Notes under the pieces: model-generated
The model's input: only the letters and a program-made list of their open reading frames with translations
What the model was told of the DNA's origin: nothing
The model's database searches: none
Part shown: positions 8,872 through 59,643 of the stretch, piece after piece
Layout of the letters: the number at the start of each line of letters is the position of its first letter
Numbering within the stretch: position 1 is the first letter of the stretch
Translations under genes and position numbers: made by a program
Source: Selaginella tamariscina
Lineage: Eukaryota > Streptophyta > Lycopodiopsida > Selaginellales > Selaginellaceae
NCBI GenBank assembly: GCA_003024785.1
Contig: PUQB01000370.1
Coordinates: forward strand, 1 to 64,000
Direction of reading: 5' to 3'
DNA: 64,000 bases

Positions 8872-10222
8872 ATGTTGAGAGGAAATGCGATTCCTGCAAG
8901 AAAGGTATGTGTGTTTTGAGCTGTAAATTCTCCATGACGCAGTCCGCGTCCAGGTGCAGAGCAATGGTATCGAAACCACATCGTCCCTGGCAAGCTCTCA
9001 TTTTTCTTCATTTTCATAGTAGACTGACCATTGACTTTGTTTTTCCTTGTTTGAAGATCGGCCATTGTCGACCGATCCGCGTTGGACTAATGGAGGCCTG
9101 TCTCGTGCCAATTTCTCCACACAACCACAAGGTATGTGTAGTGTGCGCCTTTTTATATGAGCGACGTCTTAGTGTTTTTCTCGCAGGAGGTGCACAGGAT
9201 TGTGTTCCCATCGGAGCTCGTCAGGCCGAAGAGAGACTTTACGAGTCACACACTGCGTCCACGAACGGTGAGTGATATGGTCAACATGATATGATATTAA
9301 ACAATGTGTTGAGGTGTTGGTAATATGTGCAGCTGCAGCCATGGGTGGATCCTCTCTCATCCGCCTTGAAGACTGGTAGCACTGGCCGCAGGGATAAAGA
9401 TCACACTGTGCTTGTGGCTGCCGATTATGAGGTCACTGTGTACTTCAAAGAACACTTTGAAAAGCTGCGACAGAGTCAAGGGTTGGACAGCAATTATGAC
9501 TTTGTCAACTACCTGGCGACTGCAACGCCTCTCTCCGGGCCCCATGGAGGACGTAGCAGTGCAAACCTTACCACAACGGTGGACAACCGTTTCTTCATCA
9601 AAGAGGAGAGCCGGGACAGGTTTTGCAAGAGCTTTGCGGCATTTGGTCATCGTTACTTCGATTACATCTACAAGAACGAGAGCTGCCTTGCTAAGGTGCT
9701 CGGCATCTACAAGGTAGACATGTGATACTTTGCCGCAAAATTCTTTGTCTCCGACTCTAACTTTCTTCCCTGTCTCAGATTCAAACGAGTGAGAAAGCAA
9801 CTGCAATCATTGTCACAGACGGCCTGACGCCTCCCAAGAACATAGGGACTACTGTTGCATGGTACGATCTCAAAGGCTTCCCACGGGAGGATGTGCCTAT
9901 AGCCGATTGGTCCTTCACTCGACCCATCGTCATCGACGCAGCATCTCACGATAAGTTTTTCAAAATGGTGGAACAGGACACCAAGTTTCTGGAGGTAATA
10001 ACTTTTAAACTATTTCCAATCAACTTTTAACACCTCATTTCACAGGATTCCGGTCTCCTGCATTACTCTCTCCTTGTGTCGCAGCTGGACACTGGCCTCT
10101 TGGTGGTAGGAATTATAGATTACCTTGGCATGACCCTGAAGAAGGAGTCCTTGTTGTTTCAAGTGCACAGGAGCAGGCTGCTGAAAGCCTTGCGCAGCTA
10201 CTTTCCCAAGAAATCACTCTAG
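8872..10222 (+). CDS. FAB1/PIKfyve-like phosphoinositide kinase-domain protein, probable pseudokinase
   Basis: Seven exons join in one frame with GT-AG introns: 8872-8904, 8943-8966, 9057-9131, 9187-9267, 9333-9713, 9779-9994, 10046-10222. They give about 328 residues. From exon 5 on, the protein follows the PIPK fold of FAB1/PIKfyve enzymes, which phosphorylate PI3P to PI(3,5)P2 on endosomes: D-F-V-N-Y-L, R-F-F-I-K (nucleotide-binding Lys), S-C-L-A-K-V-L-G-I-Y-K, Y-D-L-K-G, then Y-S-L-L-V and G-I-I-D-Y. The segment normally reading M-D-Y-S-L-L-V reads L-H-Y-S-L-L-V, so the catalytic Asp is His. The FYVE and chaperonin-like parts of full FAB1 are absent. The start is the first ATG joining the frame; upstream exons are possible. 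A truncated inverted copy lies at 13990-14995. Confidence 0.65.
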
Positions 10223-13989: not shown

Positions 13990-14995
13990 TATTTAATAAA
14001 AAAAATGACAGTAAAAAGATAGTAAACTATATAAAATAATTAAACGATTTAAGATTAGGTGATATCACAATAGTTAATTTACAAAATCATAAATGATTAA
14101 AAATATAACAACTTTGTTTAATTGGGAACTAAAAACCTTGAAACAGAACAACAATATAGAAGTTGGTAAAAAAATAAATGTTAAAAAGCAAAAAATATTT
14201 AAAAACAGAAAAAAAAAAACATTCTGAATTAATACCTCGCTTACGCCAAATATCATTTGAAAATGCTGCACTCACGGGAAAGTAGCTGTGCAAGAATGTG
14301 CAGCCTGCTCCTGTGCACTTGAAACAGCAAGGACTCCCTCTTTAAGGTCATGCCGAGGTAATCTATAATTCCTACCACCAAGAAGCCAGTGTCTAGCTGT
14401 TACACAAGGAGACTGGAATCCTGTGAAATGAGGTGTTGAGAGTTGATTGGCAATAGCTCAAAAGTTATTACCTCCAGAAACCATTTTGAAAACTTCTCGT
14501 GAGATGTTGCATCAGTGATGATGGGTTGAGTGAAGGACCAATCAACTATAGGCACATTCTCCTGCAGGAAGCCTTTGAGATCGTACCGTGCAACAGTAGT
14601 CCCTATGTTCTTGGGAGGTGTCAGGTCGTCTATGACAATGATTGCGGTTCATTCGTTTGAATCTGAGACCGAAAAGGAAGTTAGAGTCGGAGACACAGAG
14701 TTTTGCGGCAAGGTATCACATGCTTACCTTGTAGATGCCGAGGACCTTAGCAAGGCAGCTCTTGTTGTTGCAAATGTAGTCGAAGTAACGATGACCAAAT
14801 GCCGCAAAGCTCTTGCAAAACTTGTCCCGGCTCTCCTCTTTGATGAAGAAGCGGTTGTCCACTGTTGTGGTAAGGTTTGCACTGCTAAGTCCTCCACGGG
14901 GCCGGAGAGAGGCGTTGCAGTCGCTAGGTAGTTGACAAAGTCATAATCGCTGTCCAACCCTGCAGCTTTTCGAAGTGTGCTTTGAACTGTTTATG
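13990..14995 (-). pseudogene. FAB1-like kinase, inverted partial copy
   Basis: Reverse complement of about 9437-10480, covering the last three kinase exons and about 250 bases of AT-rich 3' flank. Relative to the gene at 8872-10222, the last-exon segment coding for L-L-H-Y-S-L-L is shortened by about 18 bases, and the splice region upstream is altered. The copy ends abruptly near 14995 against fucosidase sequence, so the first four exons are missing. Confidence 0.75.
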
Positions 14996-25027: not shown

Positions 25028-26045
25028 TATCACGACCCAATACAGGATACAGGATTCTGGATACAGGATACGGGTTACAGGATATGCCTACAGGATTTCC
25101 TACAGGATATGCCACAGGATATGCCTAGAGGATAAGGGACATGTGGACTCGTCTTAGCCTCTACATGCATGCAACCACTTTTAGATGCATGCAACCACTT
25201 TTAGCACTCATGCCTAGATTAACTCTTGGAGTTGTGAGCATAAAAGCTCCGACCTAATTATTGTACAATCAGTTACTATCAACACCAGTCATTCTACGAT
25301 CATTCTTGTTTGTCTTATTCTTGTCTTGCTCCTTGCTTTCTGTTCTCTCCTTGTCTCGCTCCTGGATCCTGTCCTACTCCTGTCTTGCTCTTGGATCCTG
25401 TCTTGCTCCTGTCTTGCTCCTGTCTCGCTGTTGGATCCTGTCTTGCTCTTGGATCCTGTCTTGCTCCTGTCTTGCTCCTGGATCCTGTCCTGTTCCTGTC
25501 TTGCTCCTGGATATTGTCATGTTCCTGTCTCGCTGTTGGATCCTGTCCTGCTCCTGTCTTGCTCTTGAATCCTGTCCTGCTCCTATCTTGCTCCCGAATC
25601 CTGTCCTACTCCTGACTCCTGAGTTCCTTGCTCCCTGTCCTGCTATCCTGCTCCAGTTCCTATCTTGTTCCTTGTCCTGCTATCCTACTCTAGTTCCTAT
25701 CTTGCTCCTTGACTTGCTATCCTGCTCCAGTTCCTATCTTGCTCCTTGACCTGCTATCTTGCTCTAGTTCCTATCCTGCTCCTTGTCTTGCTATCCTGCT
25801 CCAGTTCCTATTGTGCTCCTTGTCTTAATATCTTGCTCCAGTTCCTATCTTGCTCCTGCTCCTGCTATCCTGCTCCAGTTCCTATCTTGTTCCTTGTCCT
25901 GCTATCCTGTTCCTAGTTCCTGTCCTACTCCTTGTCCTGCTATCCTGTTCCTAGTTCCTGTCCTACTCCTTGTCCTGCTCCTGAGTCAAGCCTCCTTGTT
26001 CTCAGAATCCTACTATCTTCCTTGTTCCTGGATCGTGGCTTGACA
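25028..26045 (+). repeat. 5' LTR of chromovirus E
   Basis: 1018 bases. The first 120 are GGATAC/AGGATAT repeats, followed by an AGCATAAAAGCTCC segment. About 650 bases of CT-rich minisatellite (variants of CTTGCTCCTGTC and GCTATCCTGCTCCAGTTCCTAT) make up the rest. Long open frames through the tail on the plus strand are a by-product of this repeat. Confidence 0.9.
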
Positions 26046-39429: not shown

Positions 39430-39970
39430 TCTCATGTTAGTTCCTCCGCAAGCTCTCTCCACTCCTGTAAGTTCGCGGATTCCTGTACATGGTTCTTCCA
39501 ATCCTGTATCAGTGTTGAAGACTTCTCCTCGACAGGATCCACCTCCTGTCAGTTCCTCAGCACATTCTCAGGCTCTCATCAGTTCGCGGTTTCTGAAGGT
39601 TCCTCCTCAACAAGATTCACCTCCTATCAGTTTGTCAACACATTCTCAGGCCCTCCTCAGTTCGCAGTTTCCTGTACAGGGTTCTTCCAATCCTGTATCA
39701 GTGTTGAAGACTTCTCCTCGACAGGATCCACCTCCTGTCAGTTCCTCAGCACATTCTCAGGCTCTCATCAGTTCGCGGTTTCTGAAGGTTCCTCCTCAAC
39801 AAGATTCACCTCCTGTCAGTTTGTCAACACATTCTCAGGCTCTCCTCAGTTTGCGGTTTCCTGTACATGGTTCTTCCAATCCTGTATCAGTGTTGAAGAT
39901 TCCTCCTCGACAGGATTCACCTCTTGTTAGTTCATCAACACTACAGGTTGCTCCTCCTGCTTCTCCTTTT
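39430..39970 (+). repeat. 189-bp in-frame tandem repeat in chromovirus E
   Basis: Nearly identical units begin at 39482, 39671 and 39860 (CCTGTACA.GGTTCTTCCAATCC), an exact 189-base period (63 codons). Each unit has two sub-repeats of Ser/Pro/Gln-rich code (P-P-R-Q-D-P-P-P-V-S-S-S). The array sits between protease and integrase C-terminus, where RT, RNase H and integrase core belong, and two frames stay open through it. Confidence 0.85.
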
Positions 39971-40567: not shown

Positions 40568-41503
40568 TGTCATGACCTGATACAGGATACATGATATGGG
40601 TTACAGGATATGCCTGCAGGATATTCTTACAAGATATTCCTATAGGATATGCCACAGGATATGCCTAGAGGATAAGGGACATGTGGACTCGTCTTAGCCT
40701 CTACATGCATGCAACCACTTTTAACACTCATGCCTAGATTAGCTCTTGGAGTTGTGAGCATAAAAACTCCGACCTAATTGTTGTACAATCAGTTACTATC
40801 AACACCAATTATTCTACAATCATTCTTGTTTTGTTTTATTCTTGTCTTGCTCCTGCTTCTGTTTCTCCTTGTCTCGCTCCTAGATCCTGTCCTACTCTTG
40901 TCTTGCTCTTGGATCCTGTCATGTTCTTGTCTCGCTCTTGGATCCTGTCCTGCTCCTGTCTTGCTCCTGGATTCTATCCTGTTCCTGTTTTGCTCCTGGA
41001 TCTTGTCCTGTTCCTGTCTCGCTCTTGAATCCTGTCCTGCTCCTGTCTTTCTCCTGGATCCTGTCCTACTCCTGACTCCTGAGTTCCTTGCTCCTTTCCT
41101 GCTATCCTGCTCCAGTTCCTATCTTGCTCCTTGTCTTGCTATCCTACTCCAGTTCCTATCTTACTCCTTGACCTGCTATCTTGCTCCAGTTCCTATCTTG
41201 CTCCTTGACCTGCTATCCTGCTCCAGTTCCTATCTTGCTCCTTGTCTTGCTATCTTGCTCTAGTTCCTATCGTGCTCCTTGTCTTGCTATCTTGCTCTAG
41301 TTCCTATTGTGCTCCTTGTCTTGCTATCTTGCTCCAGTTCCTATCTTGCTCCTGCTCCTGCTATCCTGCTCCAGTTCCTATCATGTTCCTTGTCCTGCTA
41401 TCCTGCTCCTAGTTTCTGTCCTGCTCCTTGTCCTGCTCATGAGTCAAGCCTCCTTGTTCTCAAAATCCTGCTATCTTCCTTATTCCTGGATCGTGGCTTG
41501 ACA
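40568..41503 (+). repeat. 3' LTR of chromovirus E
   Basis: 936 bases, starts TGTCATGACC and ends TGGCTTGACA, with the same arrangement as the 5' LTR and a shorter CT-rich minisatellite. Confidence 0.9.
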
Positions 41504-52978: not shown

Positions 52979-55010
52979 GGTAGTATTGGTAATTAACAAT
53001 TGTGTGTAGGATGTACCAAAATGGGTAGACTAATACCCAAAAAAATATTAGAGTTTAAGAAGAAATTAGAAATTCAAGGCTTTTAGTAAACTTCGATTAG
53101 AATATCTATGTCAAACTACATACCTTAAGAAGAGGGCAAGACAAAAGAATGCTCAACAAAGGCCTAACGAGAATATATTTGCAGCTTTGAATAGTAAATG
53201 AATGGATTACTATTAACAGGTTTTTGTAGAACGTTGAGATAAAACAAAGAACAACAGGAACGAGAGGAGTGGTACATATGACAATAAGCCATGAGGAAGT
53301 TGGAGGAACGAGAAGTACAACAACGTAAAGAACAATTAGAGGCATGGGAACCAACACAACAATAACCGGAGCATGAGAAACTTAATAGTAAGGAAGACAA
53401 ACTTAGAGACAACCTTAATACAAGAACAACGGGGTGCAATTATCACCACAATGTTTATGGGATATATTGGTGATTGATACACTAGAAATGATGAAAGGAT
53501 TAACAATCATCATGAAAGTGGTACCATTTGCCTTTTGTAGTCTCAAGCATGAAGATACGAGTCAATATACAACAATTTAAGAAAGCATGCAAAACCAATG
53601 AAATCACGAATGAAAATAAGAAATTTCAAATATTTCCATTCACCCTAAAGGGAGATGCCAGAGAATACTATTACAATTGATAAGTAAGTACGAAACACTA
53701 CTTACATTATTTCAAAATTACTATGTTAAGAAGTATCATAAGTAAAATCTAATAGTCCAGTTGTAGGAATTACAACAAGAAACTATAGAACTTGTGGAGG
53801 ATTACATGCATAGATTTTGAAGAATATACAATTGTTGTGACATGGGTAATATCAATGACAAATTGGTAAGGAAATGGTATGTGAATGGATTATGCAAAAA
53901 TTTGCAATTACAAGTACGGCTGGTTAGGCCACATGATTTGAAAAGGAGGCGAGACAAATTGAATGTTGATACCACCATGATACATGAACAATGAGGAATG
54001 TGAACCACAAAGACCACATAAGAAGGAAACCAAGGTACGAGTACGGCCCAAAACAATATTATGCATAACATGTAAAATGAAGGACACAGTGCTTTGAAAT
54101 GTAAAATACTGTAGTATCGAATGTGTGGAGGAGTAGAACATATGGTTGACGGTGGCCCATCATCACGACCAGCCGGCAGGTCGCCACCGGCGCAGACGAG
54201 CGGCGGGACGAAGCGCCGGATAAGGGGAGGTACTTCAGGTATGGACTGATGGCAACCGGTGTCAGGCGGCGACATAAACGAGTGAAGATCCGATCGTCTG
54301 GATCAACTACCCAGGGTACGAAGGATAGCACGCGTGGAGAGGCGCATAAATGTGATAGGCAGGACTCTGTCACATTGCAGCAGACCAATGGGAGAGTGCC
54401 ACCTGTAGCTAGGGACTAGTGGTAGGTACCCACTATATAAGCTGGAAGGCTAGTAGTGGGTCGGGTTGTTTGGTAGAGGAGTCAAGTCTGTGTCTTGTAT
54501 CTTGCTCCCCCTGTCGAAGATAGTTTGTACTCGGACAGGCAATATATATCCATTTTCCTTCTATTCACCCACAAGCGGGCTCTCCCCACTTGCCTGACTC
54601 CTGGGCCCGCAACACTCTCTGCCCAGCCATCTTGGTAGAACTCCCCCTTACCTGCACACGGACCCTCGCGGTGTCCGGGTAGAGGCCATCCCGATACTTC
54701 CCATTACTTCTGAGGTAAGGTTCAGCGTACCGGTCGAACCCCCAGAGTGGACGTCCTCAACAGCATCCTGGCGACCACTGCAGCTTCCTGAGAAGCACCA
54801 CATTTAGCCTGCGGAGTCCCCGACAACCAACATAAAGCGAGACAATGCCAAAATACGGGATACAAACCACATCAATCATTATTGTCAACAGGGCCACCTC
54901 CAGGATCATCAATGTGTCACTCCATGTGCTCCACATGGACACATTATGTCATACAGGCTGGATATCTCAACAGTCAGCCCGTGATATGATAGTGGGTTTT
55001 TATTTCAACT
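52979..55010 (+). pseudogene. old Ty3/gypsy gag remnant
   Basis: AT-rich, stop-ridden plus-strand sequence. F-P-F-T-L-K-G-D-A-R-E-Y-Y-Y lies near 53635-53675 and D-K-L-V-R-K-W-Y-V-N-G-L near 53850, matching the conserved gag domain. A CCHC-like knuckle around 54118-54142 is interrupted by a solo LTR and resumes at 54835. It is much older than the nested elements. No other gene is seen. Confidence 0.55.
54143..54829 (+). mobile_element. solo LTR of the B/C family
   Basis: Starts TGGTTGACGGTGG, ends CCCCGACAACCA and is flanked by the perfect duplication ACATA (54138-54142 and 54830-54834). Orientation is opposite to the B and C LTRs in the nest, so its CTATATAAGC TATA segment (about 54432-54441) is on the plus strand. 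Confidence 0.9.
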
Positions 55011-55873: not shown

Positions 55874-56729
55874 TTACGGAATATTTTCAAGAGTCACCCC
55901 ATCACTAAATGCTTGATAACTCTGCAATAACGAAAAACCATAAAGAATTAATGTTAAAGTAAAATAATTATAAATGAGAACTTGCAAAATATATAATATA
56001 TATGATAAGCACATCAACCTGCTTATATCAATATATATTGTCCGCAAAGAAGTTTTATCTATGTGTGCATATATTAGTTTAAGTAACAAAATTGCATAAT
56101 TACCTTCAAATGATGGCGAGGAGCGTGTAATTTTGGGTCCTCATAATCCAACACGGCATTATCCTATGTAGAAAAAATCACATATACACATATATGAATA
56201 TAAATAAGACATGTATGAATTATATTGTATATATAATATATACTTCCTTATAATTAAGTGCTGTTTATATGTTTATTTATTTATTTAGTATGAATTACCT
56301 TAACATGATGACGAGGGACATGCACCTTTGGGCCCATGTAATCCACATCATTCTGTAAGGGGAAATTTAAGGTTTAAAAAAAAAAAAACTATATTTTTAG
56401 TGAAGGAATTGTATACCGTTATAGCATGGTGACGAGGATCATGCTCCTTTGGATCCATGTAATCCAGATAATTCTTTTAAAAAGGGGAAAATAAAAATAA
56501 AATTAGAAAATTAAAAAAATGGTGAAAACACTGTTTAATTAATTTACCTTGGAATCCATGCTTGGTGATCCTCCCACTGCATAGAGCATACAGTTCATGA
56601 TATTAAATAAAAAATTATTATTATATTATGAGTAAATTACACAAACAGAAGCATACAAATACCGAGTGAGGGATGACTTGCGGTGAAGAGGATAGCGATA
56701 ACAAAGAAAAAAGTGAGATAGTCCGCCAT
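55874..56729 (-). CDS. secreted precursor with three tandem RGF/GOLVEN-like (tyrosine-sulfated type) peptides
   Basis: Six minus-strand exons: 56663-56729, 56548-56576, 56417-56473, 56299-56352, 56104-56163, 55874-55921. All splice sites are GT-AG and the frame is clean, giving 104 residues. Exon 1 encodes a signal peptide (M-A-D-Y-L-T-F-F-F-V-I-A-I-L-F-T-A-S). Exons 3, 4 and 5 are phase 0 at both ends and each encodes one peptide unit: DYMDPKEHDPRHH, DYMGPKVHVPRHH, DYEDPKLHAPRHH. RGF/GLV/CLEL hormones are 13 residues with an Asp-Tyr sulfation signal at the start, Pro at position 5 and P-R-H-N at the end. All three units keep D1, Y2, P5, P10, R11 and H12. The last exon adds a 15-residue tail. 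PSY peptides (D-Y-G-D-P...) are the main alternative. Receptor and role are inferred only. Confidence 0.75.
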
Positions 56730-56747: not shown

Positions 56748-56765
56748 TGCCCGTTTATATATGTG
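56748..56765 (-). promoter_or_regulatory. TATA box of the peptide-precursor gene
   Basis: On the minus strand CATATATAAACGGGC lies about 25-35 bases upstream of the start codon at 56729, so the 5' leader would be very short or the start lies close downstream. Confidence 0.5.
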
Positions 56766-57964: not shown

Positions 57965-59643
57965 ATGGCGGAGGAGCGTCTCCGGGAGCATTTGTCGCAG
58001 ATGTGGCAGGAAGACGCCATATTCCAGCGCCTCATGTACAAGAACAAGAGCCAACATCGCCGCACATTCTATTTCCGCTGGCTTCACCAGGTATTGTATT
58101 GTGTTGTGTGTGTGTGTAACCTGAATGAGCTTTAGAGTAAAGTTTATTTTACATAGTCTAGTTTTATTTACATTGTAGGTTCAGAGATTTCTCAAGCTGC
58201 TAAATACTGCTGCTTCTGACGATTTACTTACAGCAATTACTCGACATCTTCAGTCCACCTCTTCCAGGTATGAAAGCTTGTGTACGGTCGAGCTTGAATG
58301 TGTTTATAATATGTTTTTGTCAGACAGCCGGACAAGGCTTCAAAGCTTGAAACGAAGGAGAGTGTCTTGAACAGTCTGTTGGGCATCTCACGAATCTTAC
58401 ATGAGGTTTTCTCTTAATACGTACTCATACGTGTGTATGTATTGTGTGTGTCTGTTGTTGATGTAAGTATAACTTACATTTGGTTATTATTTATATGTGA
58501 AACTTTTCAATTATATCTAAACCATTTGAGCTTCACAGATAGAGTCGCCTATTCTCAATGCAAGCAGGTATTCTGTGTGTGTTGTGTGTGTGTGTGTGTG
58601 TGTTTAAAGACTATTAGGCAGGTAGCTGGCTTGTTGGAGCAATGCTACTTCATGCCATTTGCAGTTAGCGTCTTATCTGTGATGGCACGTGTTCGGGTGC
58701 TTTCATTTCAGGTACTTTTATTCAGACTGAATGTATATGTGTATACATTGAATGCGCTTAATATATGATATACATCATGCATATAATCATATCTATATAG
58801 AGATTGCTAGTGCATTTATAAATTGTATTATATGCAGCTCTTGTCAGATACAGTTGCAATCTACAATTTACTTGCGAAGGATGTTTATTGCGGCAGTTCC
58901 TTAATTCCATTCAGCAAGCTACAGGTACAATCGTCTTATATTATACACACTATTGACTAGAGAGAGGCTGAACTGTGTCTCTTAGCAAGAACTTCCGTCT
59001 TCATTAGAATGCAAATGGAAAGATTCTAGATATCAATTGACAGAGGTAAAAGCTGATACTGCAACCTGGTTTGTAGATGACCATTCTGATGTGCAACCTA
59101 AAGGTACGTGTATTAACTATGTTTATATATGCTATACTTCTAGTGGTTGATGTAATAGTATGGCTGCTCATATATTTGTGATGTATATACTATATGTATA
59201 TGTGTGTATTTACGATCGCATGTTACTGTGCAGAGAACACATCGAAGATTGTGTATAGGAGTGCAGGAAAAGACCTCGTGAGCATGACTAAAACTAGTGG
59301 AAGCCAGTCCCGTATAAACAAACCAGCGGAATTGACCAAGTCAACCACACTGACTTCGGTCAATGGATTGGCTGTCGACGAGTCAGCAGCATTCTTGTCG
59401 ACTGACAAGTCGGTAGCATTGACTCCAGTCAACAAGTTGACTGCTGTGAAGCAGTCAACGCCAGCAGCATCAGAGTTTCTTGATTTCATGGAGAGACCAC
59501 GTAATAAAAGGGTAGCTTACATTGCAGTAGGGGGCGGTATAGACAAGCCCACACCAGAAAAGGACGATGGTAAGGGTGTTGAGAAAAGAGATACACTCTT
59601 TGATCTGTTGGTATCTGGTAGAAATAATGAAAGCATATTCTAA
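57965..59643 (+). CDS. NEPRO: NEPRO-like nucleolar protein
   Basis: Eight exons in one frame: 57965-58090, 58179-58267, 58324-58405, 58539-58567, 58618-58711, 58838-58924, 58986-59103, 59234-59643, about 344 residues. The N-terminal domain matches nucleolus and neural progenitor protein (NEPRO): F-Q-R-L-M-Y-K-N-K-S-Q-H-R-R, F-R-W-L-H-Q-V-Q-R, L-L-E-Q-C-Y-F-M-P-F, L-S-V-M-A-R-V-R. The C-terminus ends F-D-L-L-V-S-G-R-N-N-E-S-I-F. In other eukaryotes NEPRO is nucleolar and linked to RNase MRP and rRNA processing. The region 59330-59460 codes for Ser/Thr/Val-rich imperfect repeats (S-V-N-G-L, P-V-N-K-L) and looks disordered. The upstream telo-box-like motif fits a ribosome-biogenesis role. Intron 4 holds a (GT)n run. 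The gene looks intact. Confidence 0.8.

Follow-up and report, generated by a model that had tools for sequence, protein, structure and literature searches.

The window, i.e. the whole stretch of 64,000 nucleotides that was analysed, carries on its minus strand a predicted gene (56729 to 55874) whose six exons were re-derived from the sequence. The predicted spliced frame is open, which can be taken as established, and encodes 104 residues with a single terminal stop. Exon 1 (56663..56729, 67 nt) provides the ATG and a hydrophobic, signal-like sequence, MADYLTFFFVIAILFTASHPSL, in which the top hydrophobic 11-mer (LTFFFVIAILF, residues 5-15) has a Kyte-Doolittle mean of 3.01 and is signal-like as judged by this hydropathy scan; an in-frame TAG is located two codons 5' of the ATG. 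Exon 2 (56548..56576) is a 29-nt micro-exon and encodes the short propeptide VGGSPSMDSK. The following three exons are in phase 0 at both ends, and each contains a single 13-residue peptide: exon 3 (56417..56473, 57 nt) carries copy 1, DYMDPKEHDPRHH (56464-56426, residues 36-48), exon 4 (56299..56352, 54 nt) copy 2, DYMGPKVHVPRHH (56343-56305, residues 55-67), and exon 5 (56104..56163, 60 nt) copy 3, DYEDPKLHAPRHH (56148-56110, residues 75-87). Exon 6 (55874..55921, 48 nt including the stop) encodes the C-terminal tail SYQAFSDGVTLENIP. The array described in an earlier note on this DNA, three tandem 13-mers each alone on an exon of phase 0/0, was thus recovered in the re-derivation.

All five introns of the peptide gene are of the GT-AG type, 64 to 182 nt long and with 18 to 24% GC; the exons have 35 to 52% GC. 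The acceptor of exon 3 ends in AAG and its donor is ACG/GTATAC, and the remaining four acceptors end in CAG or TAG; the less typical splice sites of exon 3 are one weak point of the gene model. Intron 4 (56164..56298, minus strand) possesses three overlapping AATAAA motifs, the first of them 13 nt into the intron. Speculatively, this cluster might act as an intronic poly(A) signal, but such motifs are unsurprising here because the intron has only 18% GC. Skipping of exon 2 breaks the reading frame. For exons 3 to 5, all eight include/skip combinations are in frame, so that duplication or skipping of these exons could alter the number of copies, as the earlier note had proposed. Read-through of each peptide exon yields an in-frame tail (22, 5 and 9 residues, respectively) followed by a stop. 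The motif TATATAAA (56754-56761, minus strand) starts 32 nt 5' of the predicted ATG; it was discounted as a promoter element, since its position would leave almost no leader, and is either fortuitous or would imply a very short 5' UTR. Pfam returned only bL9m_N for the precursor (E = 3.2, 7.8 bits, below cut-off), the protein search, which reaches relatives sharing three 5-residue words, gave no homologue, and neither Rfam at gathering thresholds nor the tRNA scan (bacterial code) produced matches.

An intron-rich, NEPRO-like gene (57965-59640, plus strand) lies about 1.2 kb from the peptide gene in divergent orientation. It matches Pfam NEPRO_N above cut-off (47.5 bits, E = 2.1e-12) and RMP1 below cut-off; the protein search with its product returned none of 3645 candidates at E up to 1. 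The model was drawn by eye, and its first six exons, with five GT-AG introns of 50 to 133 nt and 26 to 38% GC, were checked by script, the later exons by eye alone. It resembles the peptide gene in its short GT-AG introns and in having a 29-nt exon, and exons of this size are therefore no peculiarity of the latter. Repeats of at least 150 nt end at 54465, and none is listed beyond this position, where the peptide gene and the NEPRO-like gene are located. Elsewhere in the window, five tested open frames between 30451 and 39275 match retrotransposon domains; Retrotrans_gag, RVT_1, Integrase_H2C2 and one aspartyl protease are above cut-off there, the others below. Two sites 15 kb apart (25322-25979 and 40865-41437) have a 37-nt tandem-repeat unit in common (25627-25979 and 41087-41437), and at each of them the 37-nt array adjoins a second one built from a similar unit of 29 nt. 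A 189-nt tandem repeat (39470-39941) comprises 2.5 copies with 94% match and overlaps an open frame of 253 residues. The segments 9538-9792 and 14649-14903 form an inverted pair with 92% complementarity; the former overlaps an open frame with a PIP5K match of 21.6 bits, below the cut-off of 27, and this arm may derive from a host gene of which a fragment was duplicated.

In a six-frame translation of the window, the motif DY..P..H.P..[HNP] has three matches, which lie inside exons 3, 4 and 5, and its presence in the peptides is established. Among 40 first-order Markov sequences of window length, neither DY..P..H.P..H nor the looser DY..P....P..[HN] was found (0/40 each); with all three matches confined to one locus, a chance motif is ruled out. 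When all six frames were scanned with an RGF profile, copies 1, 2 and 3 scored 22.9, 21.2 and 21.1 bits. The next-best match has 10.7 bits, and no clear fourth copy occurs in the introns or in the rest of the window.

Nine of the 13 positions are fixed in all three copies (D1, Y2, P5, K6, H8, P10, R11, H12 and H13), and four are variable (3, 4, 7 and 9). Between copies 1 and 3 there are 12 nucleotide differences in 39 but only 3 residue differences, with 7.5 expected (P = 5e-5), which is good evidence of constraint at the protein level. Constraint between copies 2 and 3 is weak (11/39 nucleotides, 4 residues vs 6.7 expected, P = 0.031), and the comparison of copies 1 and 2 is non-significant (6/39 nucleotides, 3 residues vs 4.2 expected, P = 0.22); as the three comparisons share sequences, they are non-independent. 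The constraint between copies 1 and 3 can be regarded as established, that between copies 2 and 3 less firmly so. Nucleotide identity is 33/39 between copies 1 and 2, 27/39 between copies 3 and 1, and 28/39 between copies 3 and 2. In blastn, copies 1 and 2 align over 51 nt with 84% identity, the alignment starting 2 nt ahead of the exon and ending 1 nt beyond the peptide. The array most likely originated by duplication at the level of exons, and two steps of exon-scale duplication would be its simplest history. The pattern of fixed and variable positions suggests that the peptides may address one class of receptor, with fine tuning possible.

Profiles for the assignment to a peptide family were built from the peptides in Table 1 of PMC11534595. 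The RGF profile comprises ten Arabidopsis RGF-type 13-mers (RGF4, GLV8 and GLV9 differ in length from 13 and were left out), the PSY profile PSY1 to PSY9 and the CIF profile five CIF/TWS1 peptides, the latter two cut to 13 residues. With the RGF profile, the copies reach 21.1 to 22.9 bits, inside the leave-one-out range of its own members (18.9 to 37.1). With the PSY profile they obtain -2.6, -4.2 and 0.2 bits (leave-one-out members 30.2 to 40.2) and with the CIF profile -3.4 to -1.9 bits (members -2.6 to 24.3), the last comparison being weak, as the profile has only five members and one of them scores -2.6 when left out. Permutation of the columns after DY gave P = 0.0016 for RGF, 0.35 for PSY and 0.64 for CIF. 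In ungapped comparisons every copy shares 7 of its 13 residues with RGF1 and at most 4 with any PSY peptide; in gapped alignments, carried out for four of the nine PSY peptides, RGF1 and RGF10 score above PSY1, 2, 3 and 9 for all three copies. Similarity at the family level is therewith established, and the profile, permutation and ungapped results render the PSY-like start of the copies superficial. The comparison with the three profiles thus favours only one family: membership in RGF, which the earlier note had considered in divergent form, is supported, and its alternatives, a relationship to PSY or an intermediate family, find no match above 0.2 bits, nor does CIF. The copies are accordingly best classified as candidate RGF/GLV/CLEL peptides, neither PSY nor intermediate.

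The RGF hallmarks Asp-1 and Tyr-2 are present at the start of all three copies, as are Pro-10 and the Pro-5 and His-8 described as highly conserved in Group H (PMC8329595). Position 13 is His in every copy and Asn in Arabidopsis RGFs; position 9 is D, V and A in copies 1, 2 and 3, with Pro-9 in none of them. Both features had been put forward in the earlier note as setting the gene apart, a view that did not survive the comparison with monocots, where four RGF proteins carry the domain DYYGASVHEPRHH with a final His and a position 9 other than Pro (PMC8708909). In lycophyte Group H peptides the eighth and the last H are described as conserved, and those of ferns end with N or P (PMC8329595). 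In view of DYYGASVHEPRHH and of the lycophyte last H, His-13 does not place the gene outside the RGF family. A lycophyte origin, to which the last H had pointed, was dropped as a conclusion because of the monocot RGF ending in PRHH; a monocot or another plant would be equally compatible. Pro-9 is also missing from RGF8, RGF9 and CLE18, three of the ten Arabidopsis 13-mers used here (PMC11534595), and is, on that basis, a highly conserved but non-universal and thus non-defining residue of RGF.

With regard to processing, SBT6.1 has been described to cut the propeptides of CLEL6 and CLEL9 in the Golgi, after which sulfation of Tyr follows and a subtilase that depends on aspartate, e.g. SBT3.8, acts on the product; the Asp preceding Tyr is required for cleavage of both precursors (PMC7162652). 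SBT3.8 yields a peptide starting with DY from extended CLEL6, and cleavage after Asp is also stated in the same source (PMC7162652); we therefore place the cut at Asp and leave its exact side unspecified. In the present precursor the Asp before Tyr is kept in 3/3 copies and preceded by a hydrophobic residue (L, V and L), similar to CLEL6 with VVVM before DY (PMC7162652). The SBT6.1 sites of CLEL6 are RRLR and RRAL, of which RRAL is necessary (PMC7162652); such a site is established for CLEL6 and is not known to be universal among RGFs. No SBT6.1-type site was found in the precursor and no Arg occurs before the first peptide, and since Arg is confined to PRHH, sites of the RRLR or RRAL type are lacking. 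If the precursor works, it would either skip the SBT6.1 step or use another. Only 20 residues separate the hydrophobic stretch from the first peptide. Further residues trail every copy (AITNDV after copy 1, VKDNAVL after copy 2, a tail of 17 residues after copy 3), so that each copy would need C-terminal trimming, and no known site for a C-terminal cut of the internal copies was found in the precursor. A loose pattern for SBT6.1/S1P-type sites is R..[LVI]; it fits R-H-H-V of copy 2 and R-H-H-L of copy 3, not R-H-H-A of copy 1, and was given no weight. The R-H-H end of the copies resembles the C-terminal (Arg)-His-Asn motif reported in the IDA, CLE and RGF families (PMC4848090).

The best explanation of the locus, and one that we consider probable, is a plant gene for a three-peptide precursor of the RGF/GLV/CLEL type, which is probably functional; the plant host is our own inference. 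According to this proposal, the six exons would be spliced to encode a secreted polyprotein of 104 residues, in which the Tyr of the three DY-peptides is presumably sulfated. An SBT3.8-type, aspartate-dependent subtilase would then cut at each Asp, and the C-termini of the peptides would be trimmed to ...PRHH, releasing three RGF-like ligands that are alike at both ends and differ in between (positions 3, 4, 7 and 9). Splicing, secretion, sulfation, cleavage and recognition by a receptor are steps we infer within this proposal. An extension, which we regard as doubtful, is a splice-programmable cassette: skipping of the symmetric exons or intronic polyadenylation would determine how much RGF ligand the gene makes and in which mixture, in a lineage largely devoid of the propeptide and the SBT6.1 step.

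The strongest rival, which we hold to be possible but clearly less likely than the three-peptide precursor, is an RGF locus with alternative exons. Each transcript would, in the manner predicted for conifer CLEL genes, include just one or two peptide exons, the rest being skipped or cut off by polyadenylation within the intron that follows exon 4; the three-peptide form would be minor or absent. The conifer loci, with predicted alternative 3' exons for different peptides (PMC4016512), lend this reading a precedent, and the free combination of exons 3 to 5 (8/8 in frame), the in-frame read-through tails of the three peptide exons (22, 5 and 9 residues), the three AATAAA motifs of intron 4 just past exon 4 and the less typical splice sites of exon 3 all agree with it. 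However, the exons found here are symmetric and internal with GT-AG on both sides, those of conifers being 3'-terminal according to the same source, and the AATAAA motifs lose weight in an intron of 18% GC. A decaying or non-expressed RGF relic in a transposon-rich region is unlikely. The intact frame over six exons with all GT-AG sites present speaks against decay, as do the 9 of 13 positions constant across the copies despite third-codon-position differences and the preponderance of synonymous changes between copies 1 and 3. The relic draws on the missing homologue (in a search reaching fairly close relatives only), the retrotransposon remains elsewhere in the window, the lack of an SBT6.1-type site in a very short propeptide and the non-significant constraint between copies 1 and 2.

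Two further explanations are highly improbable. A peptide of the PSY type, or a novel family of sulfated peptides between PSY and RGF, could account for the DYxDP start common to copies 1 and 3 and for the HDP in copy 1, but the PSY profile (-2.6, -4.2 and 0.2 bits vs 30.2 to 40.2 for its members) and the gapped alignments, in which RGF1 and RGF10 outscore PSY1, 2, 3 and 9 for 3/3 copies, speak against it. The window might otherwise belong to a non-plant genome, e.g. that of a plant parasite, and the gene might mimic a plant hormone; its gag, reverse transcriptase and integrase remains, which we take to be plant-like in appearance, argue against this. As a precedent for such mimicry, CEP hormone domains have been described in a plant-parasitic nematode (PMC5103176).

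Returning to the three-peptide precursor, its interest lies in the description of RGF precursors as one-peptide proteins: a precursor with three peptides would call for a revision of the searches and models used for the family. Should the proposal be true, dose and diversity of the ligands could shift by exon duplication or skipping rather than by gene duplication. The three copies, with nine fixed and four variable positions, are furthermore a natural experiment on the importance of individual RGF residues, and they raise the question of how an RGF matures when its propeptide is nearly absent and further residues follow the C-terminus of the peptide.

In a survey of 203 RGFs from 24 species including Selaginella moellendorffii, one RGF domain is reported for each protein (203/203; PMC8708909), which bears out the statement in the earlier note that RGF precursors carry a single peptide. 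With three copies at residues 36-48, 55-67 and 75-87 of 104, the present precursor departs from the usual single C-terminal peptide. No multi-domain RGF precursor was found in the text of the open-access papers searched, and none is reported in the passages of PMC13074997, PMC4526923, PMC13091385, PMC11331138 and PMC10053774 considered here. In contrast to the surveyed RGFs, some CLE and CEP proteins are multi-domain (PMC8708909), and PSK7 of Arabidopsis has two PSK motifs (PMC11534595). For conifer CLEL genes, alternative splicing to 3' exons encoding different CLEL peptides has been predicted (Strabala et al. 2014, PMC4016512), with an apparent exon duplication in CLEL of Picea abies (PMC4016512); such splicing might also explain gymnosperm RGF pairs with similar N-terminal parts (PMC8329595). 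Multi-peptide precursors and peptide exons are each already known; their combination in an RGF gene was not found in the papers searched and may be new.

The copies share the DY start, P5, H8, P10, R11 and H12 with RGF1. Compared with the monocot domain DYYGASVHEPRHH, copy 2 is identical at 9 of 13 positions including VH.PRHH, and copies 1 and 3 at 7 of 13; the monocot domain lacks Pro-5 and occurs once per protein in the survey, whereas the gene described here has Pro-5 and three peptides. Like precursors of the RGF/GLV/CLEL family, the predicted product is about 100 residues long with an N-terminal hydrophobic, signal-like stretch, and its gene contains introns (PMC8708909, PMC11534595). It differs from the usual members in its three internal tandem peptides, the very short propeptide, His-13 and the missing Pro-9. 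Lycophyte Group H precursors mostly stop at the peptide (PMC8329595), whereas a tail of 17 residues follows copy 3. With some CLE and CEP proteins and with PSK7 the precursor has several hormone motifs in common, although the families differ. The conifer CLEL loci are the nearest structural precedent found: as in the present gene, several peptides are encoded by separate exons of one locus, but the conifer exons are predicted 3'-terminal alternatives, whereas those found here are symmetric internal exons that lie next to each other and could all be joined in a single frame.
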